A stretch of 19,454 bases of DNA, from assembly GCA_030747075.1 (NCBI GenBank), contig JASLLL010000038.1:1-19454 (forward strand), written 5' to 3'. A program made the position numbers and the translations under genes. Under the pieces are notes generated by a model, which saw only the letters and a list, made by a program, of their open reading frames with translations, was not told the DNA's origin and searched no databases. The DNA is from Gemmatimonadota bacterium. GTDB lineage: Bacteria > ARS69. Of the stretch, positions 436-15,034 are shown piece after piece. Positions within the stretch are counted from its first letter, which is position 1; every line of letters begins with the position of its first letter.

Positions 436-1160
436 GCGGTTAGTTGTCCTCCGTCGACGCGAAGGACCTGTCCGGTCACATGACGCGCGAGGTCCGAGCA
501 CAGGAAGAGGACGCTTCCGGCGACATCCTCCGGTTCCGCCATCCGGCCGAGCGCCGTTTCGTCGAGGGCGGTCCGGAGGACTTCCCCCGGGAGGCTCTCG
601 GTCATGGCTGTACGAACGAGTCCGGGAGCCACGGCATTGACGCGCACACCGAAGCGGCCCAACTCCTTTGCGGTCGAACGGGCGAGCGCGTTCAGCCCGG
701 CCTTGCTGGCCGCATAGTTGGACTGTCCGAACTTGCCGCGCTCCCCGTTGATGGACGAAATCAGGACCACGGACCCGCCGCCGGTTTTTCGAAGGTGGGG
801 AACTGCGGCCTGTAGAAGGAAGAAAGCGGAATCGAGATTGACGGACAGGACACGCCGCCATTCTTCCACGGGCATCTTCCAGACCACCGAGTCCGCGGTG
901 ATCCCGGCGCAATGCACGACAAAGTCGAGGCGTTCCTGCTCCTCGGCGAAGGCGTCGACGGCGTGGAGCGTTGCGTCCGGGTCCGCAAGGTCCAACGAGA
1001 TGTCAATGGCGCCCGGAGCCGGAGGGCAGCCGGGAAGGTCCATGCTTCCGGTCGTTGCGCCGTGCCGGAGGAGAGTGTCAACGATTGCGCGCCCGATGCC
1101 GCCGCTTCCTCCGGTGACGAGTGCCGTCTTTCCGTCGAGAGAAAGGGGGCGGTCGGTCAT
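432..1160 (-). CDS. Short-chain dehydrogenase/reductase (FabG/PhaB-like), candidate 3-hydroxyacyl-CoA dehydrogenase
   Basis: A 242-residue classical SDR. Using the ATG at 1160 as residue 1, the cofactor motif TGGSGGIG is at 16-23, CAG at 84-86, Asn108 in 'SVNLDSAF', the catalytic Ser at 135/136, and YAASK at 149-153 (Tyr149, Lys153), followed by 'VAPGLV' and the usual 'VDGG' near the end. The family reduces 3-oxoacyl or oxidises 3-hydroxyacyl thioesters and related alcohols with NAD(P). The gene lies directly after dch with an ATGA overlap (1157-1160). A GTG 12 bases further upstream is a poorer start because the Shine-Dalgarno GGAG lies between the two. Oah releases 3-hydroxypimeloyl-CoA, so I infer that this SDR may oxidise it to 3-oxopimeloyl-CoA. 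A role like BadH (2-hydroxycyclohexanecarboxyl-CoA dehydrogenase) or plain FabG cannot be excluded. Confidence 0.9.
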   Translation of the reverse strand: MTDRPLSLDGKTALVTGGSGGIGRAIVDTLLRHGATTGSMDLPGCPPAPGAIDISLDLADPDATLHAVDAFAEEQERLDFVVHCAGITADSVVWKMPVEEWRRVLSVNLDSAFFLLQAAVPHLRKTGGGSVVLISSINGERGKFGQSNYAASKAGLNALARSTAKELGRFGVRVNAVAPGLVRTAMTESLPGEVLRTALDETALGRMAEPEDVAGSVLFLCSDLARHVTGQVLRVDGGQLTA

Positions 1161-1939
1161 GAGTTGCTCCACGCGGGTTTCCGTTTCTCCAGGAAGGAGG
1201 CGAGGCCTTCGCGCGCGTCCTTCGTTTGCATCAGGTCGTCCAGATAGAGCTTCTCCACGCGGTCGAGCTCCGCAAGGAAGGTCCGGTGGAAGGGCCCGCG
1301 CACAGCCTGCAACGCGATGCGAAGACTGGAGGCGGATTTGGGGAGAAGGCGCTTCTCCGCCCAGGCGAGGGCAGCGTTCGCCGGGTCGTCGTCGACTTCG
1401 TCCACGAGTCCCATGGAGAGCGCAGCCTCCGCCCCGATGACGCGGCCGGTGGCGCAGAGGTCATCGGCGGAGGGTTGCCCGACGCGCATCGGCAGAACGA
1501 GAGAAGCGACCGGCGCGAAGACACCGAGCGCAATCTCCGGCTGACCGAGCTTTGCATCCGGGGCGGCAAAGACGCGATGACAGAACGACGCCAGTTCGAG
1601 CCCGCCACCAAGGCACTGCCCGCGGACCGCGGCGACGAGAAAGACGCCACACTCCAGCATGGCCCGGAACATCGCGTGGAATCCGGGGAGCATGGAATCG
1701 ACCGCGCCGGGAAGGTGCTCCTCCACGCTGGCGCCGAAGGAGAAGTGAGGACCTTCGCCTTCCACGATGACGGCTTTCAGGTTCCGGTCGGTGCGTGCCT
1801 CCTGGAAGGTGGTGGTGAGCGCCTCGATCATTTTCGCGTCGAGAACATTCGCCTTGGGTGCCGAGAGGAAGATGCGCCGGAGTGCACCGTCGGCGGATAC
1901 TTCCACGCGGATGGGACCGGCGGTGGGCGTGTTCGTCAC
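1157..1939 (-). CDS. dch: Cyclohexa-1,5-diene-1-carbonyl-CoA hydratase (crotonase family)
   Basis: A 260-residue enoyl-CoA hydratase/isomerase-family protein. The oxyanion-hole segments are 'FSFGASVEEHLP' (66-77) and 'GQCLGGGLELA' (107-117). The two glutamates typical of hydratases are at Glu115 (GGGLELA) and Glu135 (GQPEIALG), with the 20-residue spacing seen in true hydratases. The following 'VFAPVASLVLP' run and the context point to Dch (BamR), which adds water to cyclohexa-1,5-diene-1-carbonyl-CoA to give 6-hydroxycyclohex-1-ene-1-carbonyl-CoA in anaerobic benzoyl-CoA breakdown. The GTG start overlaps the oah stop as GTGA (1936-1939), and AAGGTGG lies about 7 bases upstream. The stop overlaps the SDR start. 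Sequence alone would allow a general enoyl-CoA hydratase; placement beside had and oah makes the specific call likely. Confidence 0.86.
   Translation of the reverse strand: MTNTPTAGPIRVEVSADGALRRIFLSAPKANVLDAKMIEALTTTFQEARTDRNLKAVIVEGEGPHFSFGASVEEHLPGAVDSMLPGFHAMFRAMLECGVFLVAAVRGQCLGGGLELASFCHRVFAAPDAKLGQPEIALGVFAPVASLVLPMRVGQPSADDLCATGRVIGAEAALSMGLVDEVDDDPANAALAWAEKRLLPKSASSLRIALQAVRGPFHRTFLAELDRVEKLYLDDLMQTKDAREGLASFLEKRKPAWSNS
1167..1170 (-). promoter_or_regulatory. Ribosome binding site that decides the SDR start
   Basis: GGAG stands six bases before the ATG at 1160. It lies just downstream of the alternative GTG at 1172, so the ATG that overlaps the dch stop is the better start. Confidence 0.6.
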
Positions 1940-3045
1940 GACACATCCACCTTTCCGTGGGCCGCCGCGAGAATCTCGTCGGTCAACGCGTCGCCCCACA
2001 CCGCACCTTCGGCCAGGCGGCGACGGAGCAGCAGGAAGTCCGCTTCGCGGCAGGTCTCGGAACTGCCCTCGTGGAAGGCCCGGAAGCCCGCACGCCCTTC
2101 CGTCATCATGTTGAGCGCGAGCCACGCGCGGTTGCTTTCCTTGTTCCGGTTCCAGTGTTCGAGTTTGTGTTTGCGCACGCTCTCGGTTGTCTTCGTGAGG
2201 CATCCGGGCATCGTGAGTGCCAGTTGTAGTATGAGGCGGTCGACTTCGGCATCCAGAAGCGACAGGTCCACCTCTCCGGACTTGAGAACCTTCCTGGCTT
2301 CTGCGCGTTCCTTTCCGGAGCGGAACTCGCCATGGACGATGTTCCCGTATGCATCGAGCCAGCGATCGGTGACCGCCATCGGATTCGGAACGAACTCCCC
2401 GTCGACCTTGAGCGCGGGAACGATCTTCGTAATCAGCCCCAACCGGTGGGCCATGTGGGCGCTCCACGGCTGGCAGAGGGTACAGCTGTCCATGGCGCGT
2501 TCCACCCCGACGAACAACGCCAGGAAGTCCGTTGAGCCGCCGTCGGGCGCCGACCCATGCTTCGGCCCGGCCTGCCCGAACAGCGCGAGATCCTGCGAGA
2601 CGGTGAAGTCGCACGCCATGCCGATCTCCTGCCCGCCCGCAATCCGCATTCCATTCACACGACAGATGACCGGCTTGTCGCAATGGAGGATGGCGGAGAC
2701 CATGTCGTTGAAGATGCGCATGTACTGCCGGTACTCTTCCGGGTTCCCTGCGTAGTACTCGGCATACTCGGCGGTGTTTCCTCCTGTGCAGAACGCCCGG
2801 GTTCCGCTGCCGGTGAAGACGACCGCAACGCACGCCCTGTCATTGGACGCCCGACGCATTCCGAGGATCACGCCCTTGGCCATCTCGGTCGTGTAGGAGT
2901 TGAGCTGCGAAGGATTGTCGAGCGTGATGCGCACGGCATGAAGCCCTTCCACAGGGATCCCGTCCGCTCCCGGAATGGGGAGTTCTTCGTAGAGAAGTCC
3001 TTCGAACTTCGGGAAAGGTGCGATGTCGTGGTTCTTGAAATCCAT
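1936..3045 (-). CDS. oah: 6-oxocyclohex-1-ene-1-carbonyl-CoA hydrolase (ring-opening hydrolase, BamA type)
   Basis: A 369-residue, enlarged crotonase-fold enzyme. It adds water and hydrolytically opens the ring of 6-oxocyclohex-1-ene-1-carbonyl-CoA, giving 3-hydroxypimeloyl-CoA. Visible hallmarks are 'TLDNPSQLNSYTTEM' (41-55), 'GTRAFCTGGNTAEYAEYY' (81-98), 'NGMRIAGGQEIGMACDF' (131-147) with Glu140, and 'FGQAGPKHGSAPDGGSTDF' (156-174). At the place of the second hydratase glutamate it has Gly160, followed by a GPKxGSxxDGG block that resembles MenB-type crotonases. The long C-terminal part (about 240-369) is a further feature of this subfamily. The ATG overlaps the had stop by one base (TAATG), with GGAG 8 bases upstream. 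A longer open frame reaching 3891 is the shadow of had and was not used. This gene family is the usual marker for anaerobic aromatic degraders, and the match is strong along the whole length. Confidence 0.95.
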   Translation of the reverse strand: MDFKNHDIAPFPKFEGLLYEELPIPGADGIPVEGLHAVRITLDNPSQLNSYTTEMAKGVILGMRRASNDRACVAVVFTGSGTRAFCTGGNTAEYAEYYAGNPEEYRQYMRIFNDMVSAILHCDKPVICRVNGMRIAGGQEIGMACDFTVSQDLALFGQAGPKHGSAPDGGSTDFLALFVGVERAMDSCTLCQPWSAHMAHRLGLITKIVPALKVDGEFVPNPMAVTDRWLDAYGNIVHGEFRSGKERAEARKVLKSGEVDLSLLDAEVDRLILQLALTMPGCLTKTTESVRKHKLEHWNRNKESNRAWLALNMMTEGRAGFRAFHEGSSETCREADFLLLRRRLAEGAVWGDALTDEILAAAHGKVDVS

Positions 3046-4121
3046 TACGGGCACTCCGGTGTGAGAATGACGCGACGGGAGACCTTGTGGGCGTGAAGGT
3101 CTTCGAAGGTCTCGTTGATCAAGCGAAGCGGACGGCGCTCCACGAATGCGGGAAGCGCCACCTTTCCACCGAGCACGAGATCGAGCGCGGCGGGGTAGTG
3201 CTCCGGGAGGCATCCCCAGTTTCCCTGCACGGTGGCGTCGAACGCCATGAGGTTGGAGAGGCGGATCTCCACCTTTGCGGGAGTGAACCCGACGATTCCC
3301 AGATACGCGCCATGCCCGACGAACCCGAACGCGGTCGTCTGTCCCTGGGGCGATCCTGAAGTCTCGAAGATGCGATGGCGGTAACTCGGAATGCCGTGTT
3401 CTTTCGCGAAGGCTCGGAGGGCTCCCTTCATGTCCTTGAAGGAGAGTTCCGCCGCGTTCAGTGTCAGGTCCGCGCCGTGCCCGGCGAGAAGTGCCAGTCG
3501 GTCCGCGCTGACATCGACCGCAACGACGCGCGCACCGAGCGCTGCCGCAATCTGCACGCCGAAGCCACCGACCCCGCCGATTCCGACGAAGACCGCGAGG
3601 TCGCCTTCGGCAAGGCCGCTTCGGAGAATGGCCTGATAGGGCGTGGTCACCGCGTCGGCAATCACGGAGAGATCCGCCAGTTCCAGTCCGGCCGGGTTCT
3701 TCGATGAGTCGGCGAGGTCCGGCACCGGGCAAAGACCGCGCGCGGGAACGACGAGGTGCGTGCCGAATCCGCCGTGGACATCGTTGCCCGGGAAAATCTG
3801 AGTGGGGCAGATGGATCCGTGCCCGGCCTTGCAGGCGGGACACTCTCCGCAGGGAATGACGGCGGGAACGACGACTTCGCGGCCGATCCATTCTTCGGCG
3901 CCGTCGCCAGCCTCAAGGACGCGCCCGGAGATTTCATGGCCGAGTGCCAGGGGAAGGTCGTGTCTGGTGGGAACGCCGTCGTAGAAGAAGCCGAGGTCGG
4001 TGTGACAAACACCGCACCCGACGACCTTCACGAGAACCTCGCCCGGGCCGGGGGCCGCATCCCGTTCGGAGAGTACCATCGGTTGGCCGACCTTCTCGAA
4101 CATCCATGCCTTGATCTTCAC
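3045..4121 (-). CDS. had: 6-hydroxycyclohex-1-ene-1-carbonyl-CoA dehydrogenase (zinc alcohol dehydrogenase family)
   Basis: A 358-residue medium-chain, zinc-dependent dehydrogenase. It oxidises 6-hydroxycyclohex-1-ene-1-carbonyl-CoA to the 6-oxo compound with NAD, the step between Dch and Oah. The catalytic zinc site shows GCGVCHTD (Cys39) and GHE (His62, Glu63). The structural zinc site has Cys91, Cys94, Cys97 and Cys105. The nucleotide-binding glycines are in 'VGIGGVGGFG' (179-188), with 'VVAVD' ending the second strand. I chose GTG at 4121, eight bases after AAGAGGAG; GTG at 4124 is equally in frame and would add one residue. It is the first gene of the operon, behind the promoter at 4183-4211. 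In isolation it could be called a generic alcohol dehydrogenase, but the neighbouring oah and dch fix the substrate with good confidence. Confidence 0.92.
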   Translation of the reverse strand: MKIKAWMFEKVGQPMVLSERDAAPGPGEVLVKVVGCGVCHTDLGFFYDGVPTRHDLPLALGHEISGRVLEAGDGAEEWIGREVVVPAVIPCGECPACKAGHGSICPTQIFPGNDVHGGFGTHLVVPARGLCPVPDLADSSKNPAGLELADLSVIADAVTTPYQAILRSGLAEGDLAVFVGIGGVGGFGVQIAAALGARVVAVDVSADRLALLAGHGADLTLNAAELSFKDMKGALRAFAKEHGIPSYRHRIFETSGSPQGQTTAFGFVGHGAYLGIVGFTPAKVEIRLSNLMAFDATVQGNWGCLPEHYPAALDLVLGGKVALPAFVERRPLRLINETFEDLHAHKVSRRVILTPECP

Positions 4122-4129
4122 CACAGGGG

Positions 4130-7323: not shown

Positions 7324-10300
7324 CTACGCGGAAGTCGGTCCTTCTGAGGCAACCGCCAACGGGCGCGCCGCGGCGTTCTCGTCGGCCGTCTTGGCACCGC
7401 CCTCCAGCGGGAGGTCTGCCTCCTCCGGCGTCACGGTTCCGTGGAACTCCTGCAGGCACTTCACCCGCGCGCCTCCGTCAGAGAGTGCTCGGATTCCGAG
7501 AACGGCGGCACTCGCGGCGGAGAGCGTGGAGATGAACGGTACTCCCCGCCGGATGGCCGCCGCGCGGATGGCGGATTCATCCTTGCGGGAAGTCTTCCCC
7601 AGCGGCGTCGCGATCACGAGATCGATTTCGCCGTTCAGGATTCCGTCGATCGCGTTCGGTCGGCCTTCGCTCACCTTGGCGAGCGTCACGGCGGTAAGTC
7701 CCGCGCGCTCCAGTGCGAGCGCCGTTCCGCGCGTCGCCACCAGGCGGAATCGGAGTCGCGCCAGTTCCCGCGCGATGCCCGTGATGTCGGCATGGTCGGA
7801 GTCGTTTACGGAGACGAACGCGGTCCCGGCGACCGGGAGCGGATCTCCGGCCGCAGTCTGACTCTTCGCGAATGCGCTGCCGAAGTTCTCCGAGATGCCC
7901 ATGACTTCACCGGTGGACTTCATCTCCGGACCGAGCGAAGCGTCGGCGCCCGTCATCTTGTTGAACGGAAGGACCGCCTCCTTGACGGAGACATACTTCG
8001 GGGACGGCTCCTCCAGAAAGCCCAACTCCGCGAGCGTGTTGCCTGTCATGACCTTTGCCGCGATTCTCGCGAGCGGTACACCGACCGCCTTCGACACGAA
8101 GGGGACCGTGCGCGAGGCACGCGGGTTGGCCTCCAGGATGTAAACGACATCGTCACGGATGGCGAACTGGGCGTTCATGAGCCCGATCACACCCAGGTCC
8201 AGTGCGAGCGCGCGCATCTGGTGGCGGATCGTCTCCAAGTGCTCGGGAGCGATCCGGTAGGGCGGGAGGACGCACGCGGAATCCCCGGAATGAACCCCCG
8301 CTTCCTCGATGTGCTGCATGATTCCGCCGATGACGCACTGCTCTCCATCGGAGACCGCGTCGACATCCACCTCAAACGCATCCTCCAGGAACCGGTCGAT
8401 CAGTACCGGGTGGCCCGGCGAGACGCGGGCGGCCTTTCTCATGTAGGCGACGAGCGACGGTTCGTCATAGACGATTCGCATCGCCCGCCCGCCGAGGACA
8501 TACGACGGACGCAGAAGCAGCGGGAACCCGATATCAGCGGCAACTTCGCGCGCCTCCTCCACATTGAGTGCGGTTCCGTTTGGCGGGAGCGTGAGGCCGA
8601 GCTTTTCCGCGATGCGCGCGAACTTCTTCCGGTCCTCCGCATCATCGATGGCCGACGGAGGCGTCCCGATGATCGGAGCGCCCGCCTCCTCCAGCGCGAG
8701 CGCGAGTTTCAGCGGCGTCTGCCCGCCGAACTGCACGATGATCCCCTCCGGTTGCTCGGCGTCCACCACCTCGAGAATGTCTTCCAGCGTGAGCGGTTCG
8801 AAGTAGAGCCGGTCCGCCGTGTCGTAATCCGTAGAGACCGTCTCCGGGTTCGAGTTCAACATGATCGTCTCGAAGCCCGCTTCCCGCAGAGCCTGCACCG
8901 CGTGTACGCAGCAGTAGTCGAACTCGATCCCCTGGCCGATCCGGTTCGGTCCGCCGCCGAGAATCAGGATCTTCCGCGACTCCGATGGCGCGACTTCCGT
9001 TTCGGCGCCGGGGCCGACATAGGTGGAGTAGTGGTAGGGCGTGTGCGCGGCGAACTCGGCGGCGCAGGTGTCGACCGTCTTCATGACGGGGCGCACGCCG
9101 TGCTCATGGCGGAGGGCGCGGATCTCCCTCCGCGTTCTCCGAAGGATGTGCGCAAGCTGGCCGTCGGAAAAGCCCGCACGCTTCGCCCGCCAGAGCGTGT
9201 CGGCGTCCGGCTCACGCGTATTGGACAGGCGCGCCTCCTCCTCCACGAGTGAGGCCAGTTGGTCCAGAAACCACGGGTCCACGCCGGTTGTCTCTGCGGC
9301 CTCCTTCGCGGTCATGCCCAGACGAAGCGCCCGGCGAAGCGTGAAGAGGCGGTCTTCACGCGGGGACCGGAGGCGTCCGCGCACTTCCTCCAGAGCGGCC
9401 TCGCGGGCGGCCGCTGATTCCTCTTCCGGGAGATCCTCCGGCAGGATGCCGTCGCGTCCATCGGCACCGAGCCCCAGGCGCCCGGTCTCCAGCGATCGGA
9501 GCGCCTTCTGGAGCGCTTCGCGGAATGTCCCGCCGATCGCCATTGCCTCTCCGACGGACCGCATCTGCGCACCGAGTCGTTCGTCGACACCGGGGAACTT
9601 CTCAAAGTCGAAGCGCGGGATCTTCACCACCACATAATCGAGAGTGGGTTCAAACGACGCGGGCGTCTTCTTCGTGATGTCGTTGGGGATTTCGTCCAGC
9701 GTGTATCCGGCCGCGAGGAGTGCCGCAATCTTCGCGATGGGAAAGCCCGTAGCTTTCGACGCCAGCGCGGAGGACCGGGACACCCGAGGGTTCACTTCGA
9801 TGACGACCATGCGACCCGTTGCCGGATCCACGCCGAACTGCACATTGCAGCCGCCCGTCTCCACGCCGATCTCGCGGATGATGGCGATGGCGGCGTTCCG
9901 CATTGCCTGATACTCGCGGTCGGTGAGCGTCTGCGCGGGCGCGACCGTAACGGAATCGCCCGTGTGAACGCCCATGGGATCCAGGTTTTCGATAGAGCAG
10001 ATGATGACCGCGTTGTCCGCGCCGTCGCGCATGATCTCCAGTTCGTACTCTTTCCACCCGAGGATCGATTCCTCCACGAGTACTTCGTGGATGGGGGAAG
10101 ACGCCATCGCCTGCGCAACCGAGGACTTGAACTCGTCCACATTGTACGCGAGCGCGGCGCCTGTTCCGCCCATCGTGAAGGCGGGGCGGATGACGGCGGG
10201 GAAGCCGACCTCCTCGATTGCCGTGAGCGCCTCCTCCAGACTGCGAGCCGTCCGCCCGCGAGGGAGGTCCATCCCGATCGACTCCATCGCGCGCTTGAAG

Positions 10301-10692
10301 AGTTCGCGGTCTTCCGCCTTGCGGATGGTCACGAGATCCGCTCCGATGAGTTCCACGCGATAGCGTTCCAGTACGCCGCTCTCGGCCAGCGCCACCGCCG
10401 TATTCAGCGCGGTCTGTCCGCCGAGCGTGGGCAGCAGAGCGTCGGGTCTCTCACGCGCGATGATGCGCTCCAGCACCTCGGGCGTGATCGGTTCCACATA
10501 GGTTCGATCCGCAAGCTCGGGGTCCGTCATGATCGTTGCGGGGTTTGAGTTCACGAGCACGACGCGGAACCCTTCTCGACGAAGCGCCTTCACCGCCTGC
10601 GTGCCTGAATAGTCGAACTCACACGCCTGCCCGATGATGATCGGGCCGGAGCCAATGACGAGGATCTTGTCGAGGTCTGTGCGCTTCGGCAT
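7324..10692 (-). CDS. carB: Carbamoyl-phosphate synthase large subunit
   Basis: A 1122-residue protein, against about 1073 in E. coli. It makes carbamoyl phosphate from bicarbonate, ammonia delivered by CarA and two ATP, feeding pyrimidine and arginine synthesis in the cytoplasm. The two homologous ATP-grasp halves are clear. The carboxyphosphate half has [18 protein letters not shown] (13-30), the GGTG loop at about 175-178 and NPRVSRSS (301-308). The carbamate half has [16 protein letters not shown] (579-594) and [10 protein letters not shown] (856-865). The MGS-type allosteric domain occupies about 950-1085, ending in 'VKCLQEFHG'. An extra tail of about 37 low-complexity residues follows. 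The ATG stands two bases after the carA stop. A start 15 codons upstream would lie inside carA and is not needed. No sign of damage. Confidence 0.97.
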
Positions 10693-10694
10693 GA

Positions 10695-11834
10695 TCAGCG
10701 AGTCCCTGCGGAGAGTGCGGTCATGAACTCCGGCCACAGCCGGGAGGAGTCGTGGGGTCCGGGCGCGCCCTCCGGGTGGTACTGCACCGAGAAAACGCCG
10801 AGCTTCTCGTGGAACATCCCCTCCACGGTCCCGTCGTTCAGGTTCGTGTGCGTGATCGTGAAGCCGCGATCCAGGGCGCTTGCTTCCTCCACGGCGTAGT
10901 TGTGGTTCTGGGCCGTGATGTCGATGCGCCCGGTCCGGCAGTCCCGGACGGGGTGGTTTCCTCCGTGGTGCCCGAAGGGGAGCTTGAAGGTTTCCGCGCC
11001 CGCGGCGAGTGCCAGGATCTGGTGTCCCAGGCAGATTCCCGCCACCGGAAGCCTGCCGAGAAGCTCGCGGACCGTTTCCACGGCAGCGGATGCCATGCGC
11101 GGGTCGCCCGGGCCGTTCGACAGAAAGAGCCCGTCCGCACCGAGAGAGAGAATCTCCTCCGGAGCGGTCGAGGCCGGGAGGACGACAATCCGTGCTCCCG
11201 TCGCGGCGAGATTACGGAGGATCTCGCGCTTCACGCCGAGATCGAGAACGGCCAGCGTCGGGCCGCGATACCCTTGCGACTCGGGCTTCGGGTTGTCCGA
11301 CCCCTTCCATTCGTATCGCCGAGGGGTCGTGACGGAGGACACGGCGTCGAGCGTGGACATATCCGGCACCGCACGCGCGGCACTCACCAGCGCATCCGGC
11401 CCGGAAACTTCGGCCAGTGCGGGACCGCTTGCGATGACGCCGCGCAGCGCACCCCTCTCCCGGATGTGGCGGGTGAGCGCGCGCGTGTCCAGCCGATGGA
11501 TGCCGACGATTCCGTGTCGTGTGAGGTACGCCGCCAGATCCTCTTCCGCGGTATGGGAAGATGCCGTTCGAGAAAACTCCCGCGCGACAAATCCCCGCAC
11601 ATGGGTCCGCGAAGATTGCTCATCCGCGGAGTTCACACCGTAGTTCCCGATCTGCGGGCAGGTCATCACGACAAACTGGCCGTGGTAGGACGGGTCGGTG
11701 AGGATTTCCTGATAACCCGTCATGGAGGTGTTGAAGACCACCTCACCCCCGATGAGCCCCAATGCACCAAACGCCTCTCCTTCGAAGAGGCGTCCATCTT
11801 CCAGGACGAGAAGGGCGCGGGCCGTCGGGGTCAC
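10695..11834 (-). CDS. carA: Carbamoyl-phosphate synthase small (glutaminase) subunit
   Basis: A 379-residue protein of normal family length. The N-terminal CarA domain (about 1-150) contains '[17 protein letters not shown]' (34-50) and 'GNYGVN'. The C-terminal class I glutamine amidotransferase domain has the nucleophile Cys268 (GICLGHQ) and the His353/Glu355 pair (QYHPEG). It hydrolyses glutamine and passes ammonia through a tunnel to CarB. GTG was chosen as the start because GGAG lies six bases upstream and the family motif begins right after it; the nearby ATG at 11839 is out of frame. carA and carB are separated by two bases and form one transcription unit, probably started from the promoter at 11867-11895. 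Confidence 0.97.
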
Positions 11835-11866
11835 TCCATCTCCGGGGAAGTCGGAACGGTTGCGGC

Positions 11867-11895
11867 ACCCTAGCAGGGCGGGAGCGAACGGTCAA
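11867..11895 (-). promoter_or_regulatory. Sigma-70-type promoter of carAB, overlapping the end of the upstream gene
   Basis: On the minus strand, TTGACC (11890-11895) and TAGGGT (11867-11872) are separated by exactly 17 bases. The -35 box is identical to that of the had promoter and includes the TGA stop of the upstream lipoprotein gene. Transcription would start near 11860, about 26 bases before the carA GTG. The -10 keeps only the three most conserved positions (T, A and final T). Confidence 0.5.
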
Positions 11896-13616
11896 CGAGC
11901 GACCGCGCGCGCTTCCCCTCCGTGCGTCAGCGTCCAGTGCTGGCCGGCTTTCAGGTCTCCGAAGGCGTCCTCGCGTCCGTCCGGCCACAGGACGCGCACA
12001 TCCGTCGCCGCATCCAGGTGTCCCAGCCCGACATGGACCACGGGGTCGCTTGCCGAGCAGTAGCTGAATGCCGCCCGCACATCGCGCGTGATTCTGCGCT
12101 CTCCTGCCGACAGGGACACCGTTGCGCCCAGCGCGTCCCGGCCGTGTTCCTCCAGAGCCCGGATGGAAATCCAGCTCTGCCCGCGCCCCGCCCGGTTCAG
12201 CAGGAGTTTTGCCGGTCCGTCCCGGTTTCCGACCAGGATGTCGAGCGCCCCGTCTCCGTCCACATCCGCGAACGCCGCGGCCCGGCTCGTATGGATGAGG
12301 ACTTTCGTGGTTCCGCCTTTCGGCTCCACCTCCACCAGTCTTCCGCCCGCCTCTCCCCGGAAGAGCAGGTTGGTCTCCGCGTACGGATCCGCAGTCGGTG
12401 GTTCCAGTGCCATCTCCACGCGCCCGTTTGCCAGGAAGTAGTCGAGACGACCGTCGTTGTCGAAGTCGAGAAGCCCCATCCCGAATCGCGTATACCCGAT
12501 GCTCCCGGCCCCCAGGCCGATCGCCGCCGTTCGGTCCGTGAACAACCCGCCGTCGTTCCGGTAGTAGGAGTCCGACTGTCGCTGGAGATTCACGACGAGC
12601 ACATCCAGGTCTCCGTCATCGTCGTAGTCCACCGCCATGACGCCCATGCCCGCCTTCGTGATGCCGTTCTCGTCCACCGCGCAGCCCATGATGAGCGCGT
12701 CGTCGGTGAAGGTGCCGTCTCCGTTGTTGAGCCAGAGCTGGTTGAACATCGTGTCGTTCGCGACAAAGATGTCCGTTCGGCCGTCCAGATCGAAGTCGCC
12801 GCAGACCACTCCCAGCCCGTAACCGAACGCGTCAGCGAACCCGGCGTCATCCGAAGTGTCGGTGAAAGTGCCGTCCCCTTCGTTTCGGTAGAGCGTGTCT
12901 CGTGTCGGCGCCCCGTAGTTGGTGGGCAGGCAATAGTCCGGCTCACCAAGGGAGTTTCGACAGGTGATCTCATTCTCGATGGACCAGTTCACATAGTTCG
13001 TCACAAAGAGGTCCAGATCCCCGTCGGCATCCATGTCCAGAAAGGCCGCGCTGGTGCCCCACCGGTCGTTTCCGACTCCCGCGTGTTCCGTGGTGTCTTC
13101 GAAGCGGCCGTCCCCGAGATTCCGAAGGAGCGTGTTCCCGCCGTAGTTCGTGACATAGAGGTCCATGCGACCGTCGTTGTCGTAGTCGCCGGCAGTCACG
13201 CCGATGCCGTAGCCGCGATCATCGGCCCCGCTGCCGTCTGTGCGGTCTTCAAAAGTCCCGTCGCCGCGATTGACATACAGACGGTTGCGCGCCGCCTCGG
13301 ACCCGGGATGCCGAAGGCTCCCGCTCTGGATGAGGTATGCGTCCGCCATTCCATCACCGGTGAGGTCCACGAGAGCGGCTCCGCCACCCATGATCTCGGG
13401 GAAGAGCGGGTTGGTTTCGCGGCCGGAGCCGTGCACGAAGTCGATCCCCAGCGCAGTGGTCGCGTCGGCAAACCACGCGGAGTCCGCCACCGCGGGTTCT
13501 TCCTCGACCGATGGTGCGTCCCGATCCCCGCAGCCCCCGGCGAGCAGCATCGCCCCGCCCGCGAGAGCCACCACCCCCCCGGCGCGCGGTCGCATCCGGG
13601 CGGCCCGGGCGTTCAC
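11892..13616 (-). CDS. FG-GAP/VCBS-repeat lipoprotein with ASPIC/UnbV domain (CRTAC1 type)
   Basis: A 574-residue exported protein. Residues 1-29 are a lipoprotein signal: arginines in the first eleven residues, a hydrophobic core, and lipobox LAGGC with Cys29. Seven DxxxDGxxD-type calcium-loop motifs of FG-GAP/VCBS repeats occur at 84-92, 144-152, 194-202, 274-282, 330-338, 384-392 and 451-459. They imply a beta-propeller, each blade often closing with a 'NxGDGTFxD'-like run. Residues about 480-565 form an ASPIC/UnbV domain ('DALGATVSL', 'VLWPDG'). These proteins are extracellular and structural or adhesive; no catalytic function is established. The GTG start overlaps the TPR gene's stop as GTGA (13613-13616). 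ATG at 13595 would leave a shorter but still possible signal peptide. The overlap with the TPR lipoprotein gene suggests a joint product. Confidence 0.9.
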   Translation of the reverse strand: MNARAARMRPRAGGVVALAGGAMLLAGGCGDRDAPSVEEEPAVADSAWFADATTALGIDFVHGSGRETNPLFPEIMGGGAALVDLTGDGMADAYLIQSGSLRHPGSEAARNRLYVNRGDGTFEDRTDGSGADDRGYGIGVTAGDYDNDGRMDLYVTNYGGNTLLRNLGDGRFEDTTEHAGVGNDRWGTSAAFLDMDADGDLDLFVTNYVNWSIENEITCRNSLGEPDYCLPTNYGAPTRDTLYRNEGDGTFTDTSDDAGFADAFGYGLGVVCGDFDLDGRTDIFVANDTMFNQLWLNNGDGTFTDDALIMGCAVDENGITKAGMGVMAVDYDDDGDLDVLVVNLQRQSDSYYRNDGGLFTDRTAAIGLGAGSIGYTRFGMGLLDFDNDGRLDYFLANGRVEMALEPPTADPYAETNLLFRGEAGGRLVEVEPKGGTTKVLIHTSRAAAFADVDGDGALDILVGNRDGPAKLLLNRAGRGQSWISIRALEEHGRDALGATVSLSAGERRITRDVRAAFSYCSASDPVVHVGLGHLDAATDVRVLWPDGREDAFGDLKAGQHWTLTHGGEARAVAR

Positions 13617-15034
13617 TTCTTCCCCGCGGCGGTCTTGATTCGCTCGTTGGCATTCAGAGTGATCCAGTCATGAGCGACACTGTCGAGAACTCCGTTGATC
13701 AGTCGGCGCCCGGCGGGGATGTCCCCCGTTTCCGCAAGAACGACGGCGCGGCCCGCCAGTGCATGGGGGTTTCCCGGCTCAAGAAGAAGCGCCCGATCGA
13801 ACCGAACTGCAGCATTCTCCGGCTGTCCGAGGCGGATTTCCGCCCACCCGGTGTTCGCAACGAGTTCCGCATCCGCGGGGTCCAGCCGCGCCGCGAACTC
13901 GAAGGAGTCGCGTGCATTCCCATGGCGCTCAAGGTCCGTGCACACCTCACCGCGTCTTCGGTGCGCGTCCACGGAGACCGGGTTCAACTCGATCGCGCGG
14001 TCCGCGTGATGGAGCGCACGGTCCGGCATGCCCCGGCGGGAGAAGACGACGCTGAAGTTGATGTGCGTGGACGCGACATTCGGACTCTCTTCCAGCATTT
14101 TTGTGAGGAGCTTCTGCGCCCGGTCCAGAAAGCCGGATTCGAGCAGCGCGTAGCTCAGGTAGTTGAGAAGCGTGGGATCCTCCGGGTGGTCCGGGCGAAG
14201 TTCGCGGAGAATGGAGAGGGCTTCCCGCGGATTGCCCGAGTGCAGGAGAACGAACGCCTTCTGAAGCAGGCTGACGAAGCCGATTCGGTACTCCTCGACC
14301 TCCTCCTCGCGAGGGTCCGCCCACCGGGGGCGGGATCCGCCGTACCCGAGATCCCGCAGCGCGTCCTCCATGTTCCCGTCGGCGCGGTTTGCGGTTCCGC
14401 GGAGATACCGGGCGTAGGGCACATAGGGGCTCTCCGGCCTTCGGGACAGGAACGCTTCCACGGATTCGACTGCTCCCGCGTAGTCCTCCAGTTGGAGTTG
14501 CGTGCGTGCCAGTCCGAGCCATCCTGCCGGATGGTTCGGCTTGCGGTTGATGGCTCGTTCAAACTCCGCCGCGGCTTCCTGCGGTTGCCCGAGATCCAGA
14601 AGCCACTGCGCGAGCCGCCATCGCGCGGGCGCATAGTCCTCGTCCAGATCCACCGATCTGCGCATGGCCAGTGTGGCCGCTCGCGTCTCTCCCTGATGGG
14701 ACAGCGACATGGCTTCATGGAAATGCCACCGTGCGGCGTCGGGGGCCAGCGCGATCGCGTGTCGGAAGGACCGGGCGGCGGCTTCGTGAAGCCCGCACGC
14801 TTCGTAAGCCAGGCCCAGTCGGCCGCGAGCATCGGCGCTGTTCCTCGACGCCTCCGCGTCGGCTGCGAGGGAATCCACCATGGCGGCGACGCGCTCGTCC
14901 GCATGGTCTCCCAAAGGCACACGAAGCGGCGGTGGAACGCCCTCTCCGGTGCAGCCCGCGAGAAGTATCGCGGCGGTCATCAGGGCGGAAAGCACTCCGG
15001 AGGGCGCGGGCGGGCGGGCGAGAGTCAGAGTCAT
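13613..15034 (-). CDS. Tetratricopeptide-repeat lipoprotein
   Basis: A 473-residue protein with a lipoprotein signal (MTLTLARPPAPSGVLSALMT... to lipobox LLAGC, Cys28). A short acidic linker follows, then about nine or ten TPR units between residues 66 and 455, interrupted at about 202-250 by a segment with the acidic run 'PREEEVEEYR'. Typical helix pairs read 'GRLGLAYEACGLHEAAARSF' (71-90), 'LDRAQKLL' and 'PDRALHHADRAIELNP'. TPRs bind other proteins; this one would sit on a membrane facing the periplasm or surface. The ATG stands 10 bases after the S8 gene's stop and has no clear Shine-Dalgarno, so it probably depends on translation of the gene before it. Its own stop overlaps the start of the FG-GAP lipoprotein. 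The longer open frame upstream to 15622 is a shadow of the S8 gene. Function is otherwise unknown. Confidence 0.88.
   Translation of the reverse strand: MTLTLARPPAPSGVLSALMTAAILLAGCTGEGVPPPLRVPLGDHADERVAAMVDSLAADAEASRNSADARGRLGLAYEACGLHEAAARSFRHAIALAPDAARWHFHEAMSLSHQGETRAATLAMRRSVDLDEDYAPARWRLAQWLLDLGQPQEAAAEFERAINRKPNHPAGWLGLARTQLQLEDYAGAVESVEAFLSRRPESPYVPYARYLRGTANRADGNMEDALRDLGYGGSRPRWADPREEEVEEYRIGFVSLLQKAFVLLHSGNPREALSILRELRPDHPEDPTLLNYLSYALLESGFLDRAQKLLTKMLEESPNVASTHINFSVVFSRRGMPDRALHHADRAIELNPVSVDAHRRRGEVCTDLERHGNARDSFEFAARLDPADAELVANTGWAEIRLGQPENAAVRFDRALLLEPGNPHALAGRAVVLAETGDIPAGRRLINGVLDSVAHDWITLNANERIKTAAGKK

Follow-up and report, generated by a model that had tools for sequence, protein, structure and literature searches.

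Candidate genes for O2-independent benzoyl-CoA breakdown in Candidatus Orphanbacterota, with an MBR-type class I reductase unlinked to the had-oah-dch operon

Among the tetrameric class I benzoyl-CoA reductases, those of the BCR and MBR types have been set apart from the Bzd type (PMC11971306). The benzoyl-CoA pathway itself is known, is common in uncultured lineages and is not rare in unusual phyla. Relatives of the ring-opening hydrolase Oah are encoded at no fewer than 581 loci of public species genomes, and the best 80 of these are spread over Planctomycetota, Acidobacteriota, Myxococcota, Actinomycetota, Bacteroidota, KSB1, Ignavibacteria and Pseudomonadota (plasmid records gave no Oah match). 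Some other uncultured phyla, e.g., Ca. Effluviviacota, are reported to have part of the pathway. One more host is thus less of a novelty, and what stands out here is which host it is and the apparent mix-and-match assembly of reductase and lower pathway. The original prediction was correct in placing the pathway in a poorly studied phylum.

Host lineage and the lower-pathway operon

The stretch analysed (the window) is the whole of contig C38, 19,454 bases long, from a genome of 2.67 Mb in 61 contigs (100% complete, 0.96% contamination). Our genome set groups this genome (G000) with four others that share its phylum and family. Across 4,065 bases, the Oah locus of G004, one of the four, shows 100% identity with JALGZR010000067 of isolate M3-44_Bin_119, which is named as a member of Ca. 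Orphanbacterota, FCB superphylum (PMC9727166). A match of 2,975 bases, likewise without a difference, links the Oah locus of G003, another of the four, with isolate M3-22_Bin_282. On the basis of the grouping and of the named member G004 (CarB 71% identical), the host belongs to Ca. Orphanbacterota, and the uncultured FCB-type bacterium proposed from the window was the right kind of host. Members of this phylum, mostly from Bohai Sea sediment, are described as respiratory, with M28 and S8 peptidases, cytochrome oxidases and nitrate reductases (PMC9727166); neither "benzoyl" nor "aromatic" occurs in the main text of that description. The window also carries M28 and S8 peptidases, the S8 enzymes with C-terminal FlgD-like tails.

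We identified five genes in a single minus-strand operon, in which the stop and start codons of neighbours overlap. The first is had (3045-4124, or to 4121), encoding 6-hydroxycyclohex-1-ene-1-carbonyl-CoA dehydrogenase. It is followed by the bamA-like oah (1936-3045), for the ring-opening enzyme 6-oxocyclohex-1-ene-1-carbonyl-CoA hydrolase, and by dch (1157-1939), for cyclohexa-1,5-diene-1-carbonyl-CoA hydratase. A gene for a FabG-like dehydrogenase of the SDR family (432-1172) overlaps dch, and one for an Rrf2-family transcriptional regulator (31-435) is the last before the contig end. The original prediction had placed had, oah and dch in one overlapping operon at 1157-4121, where all three are found, and it had not included the SDR and Rrf2 genes, which belong to the operon as well.

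Had scores 493.9 bits against TIGR03201 (NCBIfam cut-off 338.65) and Oah 546.7 bits against the TIGR03200 equivalog (cut-off 464.45). Oah also lies inside the Oah tree, so that its proposed place with the BamA proteins is borne out by score and by tree. The protein (369 aa) fits the long form of the enzyme (about 360-390 aa, with a C-terminal extension beyond the crotonase core) and aligns end to end with 17 other Oahs from several phyla at 49-75% identity, with invariant columns all along the alignment. By family score and tree, it is assigned as the ring-opening hydrolase, and ring hydrolysis is the predicted reaction. Dch is a probable assignment, from its score and from synteny. With 284 bits against TIGR03189 it falls 8.5 bits short of the cut-off (292.5), but the next-best family reaches 133 bits, which leaves Dch more than 150 bits above every other family, including other enoyl-CoA hydratase models. 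It is 51-66% identical to the Dch of syntenic operons in its own clade.

The SDR protein is below every equivalog cut-off among the NCBIfam profiles. It is likely the 3-hydroxyacyl-CoA dehydrogenase of the ensuing beta-oxidation, and a similar SDR stands after dch or bcrD in many other operons. The regulator is supported by TIGR00738 (79.1 bits, cut-off 73.3) and by PF02082, and a similar regulator closes the bcr operon in many loci of Planctomycetota and Acidobacteriota. Most of the best 80 public-genome Oah loci show the order had-oah-dch as well; thus, the arrangement is not a matter of chance.

The reductase operon on a second contig

When the same genome was searched for members of the ATPase family BcrAD_BadFG, two neighbouring genes came up on contig C40, in an operon unlinked to the had-oah-dch contig. 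The benzoyl-CoA reductase that the original prediction had proposed to look for outside the window is encoded there, as a class I enzyme of the MBR type. All genes are on the minus strand: a TetR regulator (13951-14571) upstream of mbdN (12783-13946; 387 aa), then mbdO (11457-12752; 431 aa), mbdQ (10628-11446; 272 aa), mbdP (9798-10631; 277 aa) and, directly after mbdP, a gene for a 92-aa protein (9523-9801). Adjacent in this operon are therefore two HGD-D catalytic subunits (MbdN and MbdO, PF06050) and two different ASKHA ATPase subunits (MbdQ and MbdP, PF01869).

The subunits match those of the solved 3-methylbenzoyl-CoA reductase: MbdN with 526 bits (next unrelated entry 146), MbdO with 537 (next 117), MbdQ with 409 (next 219) and MbdP with 313 (next, at 190, the MbdQ of the same enzyme). 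MbdN and MbdO align colinearly with the solved subunits almost from end to end. Similarity of the catalytic subunits to the Bzd type is distant (92 bits to solved BzdN, 78 to solved BzdO), and the C40 subunits fall below every cut-off of the bcr and bzd NCBIfam models, with no MBR model among their NCBIfam hits. The Thauera Bcr type (TIGR02259/02260/02263; long BcrA of about 430 aa) is not indicated either, since the genome scores far below these cut-offs. Judged by its relatives, then, the C40 enzyme is a class I, MBR-type benzoyl-CoA reductase and not a Bcr, a Bzd or a hydroxyacyl-CoA dehydratase.

The 92-aa protein has no Pfam or NCBIfam match, and its conserved cysteines suggest a putative role in metal or cluster binding. 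Its relatives adjoin mbdP in Actinomycetota, KSB1 and other lineages. Among 20 Oah-positive genomes tested, relatives were found in all eight of the MBR type and in four others, and in none of the Bcr type. One of the four (G062) is of the Bzd type by curated cut-off, and its relative lies a few kilobases downstream of two ATPase genes.

Another small protein, GNAT-acetyltransferase-like as judged from sequence starts, recurs inside the benzoyl-CoA operons of other genomes (L068 9139-9618 and 15810-16325, L202 10499-10936, L083 2077-2511, L198 5270-5731, L199 3820-4257), and there is none in the window. It could modify the ligase or the reductase.

Substrate, direction and genome context

We consider it very probable that the two operons together provide for O2-independent breakdown of benzoyl-CoA, with the reductase replaced in the course of their history. 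The MBR-type reductase encoded by TetR-associated mbdNOQP would carry out the first step at the expense of ATP, Dch would hydrate the cyclic dienoyl-CoA, Had would oxidise the product of Dch, and Oah would open the ring by hydrolysis, giving 3-hydroxypimelyl-CoA. The SDR and the Rrf2 regulator would be made from the same transcript as had-oah-dch. The joint action of these enzymes in the degradative direction is what we infer from the genes.

How benzoyl-CoA would be formed is less clear-cut. A benzoate-CoA ligase, a gene that the original prediction had singled out for a search of the genome, does not occur above cut-off there (best 219.8 bits, cut-off 375.25), and the ligase candidates scored are FadD-like or acetyl-CoA-synthetase-like. 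Within the family, this ligase is above cut-off in both Bcr-type genomes (505.7 and 492.4 bits) and in neither MBR-type genome. Reductase type thus tracks ligase presence, in four genomes, which may be coincidence. Phenylacetate-CoA ligase is absent from the genomes of the phylum and was dropped as a route of entry. The C4 molybdenum hydroxylase, considered as a 4-hydroxybenzoyl-CoA reductase, was rejected as it scores best as a xanthine dehydrogenase. As a guess, benzoyl-CoA may come from beta-oxidation of phenylpropanoids activated by a FadD-like ligase.

The substrate may also be a substituted (methyl- or halo-) analogue of benzoyl-CoA. In the strong form of this idea, the reductase and the lower pathway act mainly on compounds such as 3-methyl- or 3-halobenzoyl-CoA and not on benzoyl-CoA itself. 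We regard this as somewhat doubtful: the best match of all four subunits is indeed a 3-methylbenzoyl-CoA reductase, and the distribution of the ligase between the two MBR-type and the two Bcr-type genomes fits, but MBR-type enzymes accompany ordinary Oahs in several phyla and the name of the type stems from one studied enzyme.

A pathway run in reverse, of the kind that some fermenting syntrophs use, would yield cyclohexanecarboxylate or benzoyl-CoA; benzoyl-CoA degradation is strongly preferred over it as well. In principle the enzymes of the lower pathway can work both ways, and the missing benzoate-CoA ligase could be counted on the same side. However, the genome encodes a class I reductase that spends ATP, so that ring reduction is the driven direction and degradation is indicated, and the published description has the phylum respiring, with genes for terminal oxidases and nitrate reductase. 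Reversal is accordingly quite improbable. Of the two uses put forward in the original prediction, anaerobic aromatic use gains from the class I reductase in the genome, and cyclohexane-carboxylate formation has, beyond the points just named, nothing in its favour.

Both contigs carry housekeeping genes that bear on their origin. For CarB, encoded on the window contig, identity is 71-73% with the proteins of three family-mates and at most 63% with those found elsewhere, short partial matches excepted. IleS, on C40, is 67% identical to the proteins of two family-mates (G002 and G003) and at most 49% identical over long matches elsewhere. That the window contig or the reductase contig was mis-binned from another organism might be considered for a draft genome of 61 contigs in a phylum whose Oahs nest among those of Planctomycetota and Acidobacteriota. 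It is hardly credible given that CarB and IleS both have their nearest relatives in family-mates, that the combination recurs in G004, an independent genome of the family, and that the contamination estimate is 0.96%.

Compared with the IleS of the window genome, that of G004 (C58:720-3845) shows just 38% identity and those of G002 and G003 show 67%, which suggests that two different isoleucyl-tRNA synthetases occur within the family. FG-GAP/ASPIC-UnbV (CRTAC1-like) proteins are encoded near both operons (window 11892-13616; L003, on C40, 7886-9511), and probably represent just a large family in this host.

Four of the five phylum genomes combine an above-cut-off Oah with paired HGD-D genes. 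This co-occurrence was computed directly, as were the identity and family of each gene, the type of reductase and the host lineage. In the fifth genome, which is 67% complete, neither Oah nor the HGD-D pair was found. Across a broad sample of 386 genomes, Oah was identified in 20, every one of which also has HGD-D genes. The C40 operon shares its superfamily with the 2-hydroxyacyl-CoA dehydratases, matches HadB/HadC models and matches the bcr and bzd NCBIfam models below cut-off only, but a dehydratase without an aromatic role is most unlikely, as the MbdN/MbdO match is several-fold stronger than the HadBC match, two different ATPase subunits stand in place of one activator, and reductase genes of this type co-occur with Oah.

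Benzoyl-CoA breakdown by these genes would add anaerobic degradation of aromatic rings to a recently named FCB phylum whose main-text description is silent on the trait, and would do so across the genomes of the phylum.

Reductase type and operon history

The phylum contains both types of reductase: Bcr in G001 and G003, and MBR in the window genome and G004. By NCBIfam models, G001 has BcrC (517 bits) and BcrB (725 bits) above cut-off and BcrA (562 bits) slightly under it. In the Oah tree, the four Oahs of the phylum fall in one clade (99% SH-aLRT), nested among those of Planctomycetota and Acidobacteriota, and in 20 of the 26 distinct members of this clade bcr genes follow immediately downstream of the operon, on one contig with it. 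Most of the fetched loci of the clade show the order had-oah-dch-bcrC-bcrB-bcrA-bcrD, often followed by SDR and Rrf2 genes; the window operon is this arrangement minus the reductase block. In the reductase (MbdO) tree, the window genome and G004 are sisters (81%) within an MBR clade that has 100% support, and G001 and G003 are in the Bcr clade. A tree constrained to unite the Oahs of every MBR-type genome is rejected (p-AU 9e-7). Together these results suggest that the reductase was swapped while the lower pathway stayed.

The ancestor of the operon would have had bcrCBAD between dch and the SDR gene, and the simplest account is that this block disappeared and an unlinked TetR-mbdNOQP cassette took its place. 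The trees are quick searches with SH-aLRT support only and are unrooted, and the direction of the exchange is therefore a matter of parsimony. Gain of the MBR cassette could have preceded the loss of bcr, or the operon could have been split first. As predicted from replacement, an unlinked TetR-MbdNOQP operon was found elsewhere in the genomes of two loci without bcr nearby: one of Planctomycetota with had-oah-dch-SDR-Rrf2 (L083) and one of Arenicellales with had-oah-dch (L118).

In a broader reading, on which our judgement is evenly balanced, TetR-mbdNOQP and the 92-aa cysteine protein may form a self-contained transferable cassette that has repeatedly replaced bcrCBAD where had-oah-dch-SDR-Rrf2 was kept, with the 92-aa protein as a partner, general but so far missed, of class I reductases with short subunits (MBR and Bzd). 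Reductase type and lower pathway would in any case have separate histories, and thus surveys that use only oah/bamA as a marker cannot tell which reductase is used or which substrates are taken.

Compared with known systems, the closest is MbdNOQP (PDB 9g87 and 9gai), the best match for all four C40 subunits and likewise an enzyme with short ATPase subunits. The C40 locus differs in its host phylum, in its own upstream TetR gene, in the unlinked position of had-oah-dch and in the conserved 92-aa protein that follows in the operon. The Bzd-type reductase (G062, above the TIGR03190/03191 cut-offs) is also a class I enzyme of four short subunits, and a relative of the 92-aa protein occurs with it too, but its catalytic subunits are only distantly similar to those of C40. 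The Thauera-type bcrCBAD loci (L068, L075 and L078 of Planctomycetota, and G001) share with the window the had-oah-dch order and the SDR and Rrf2 genes in the operon, whereas the window lacks bcrCBAD between dch and the SDR gene and its genome has an MBR-type enzyme.
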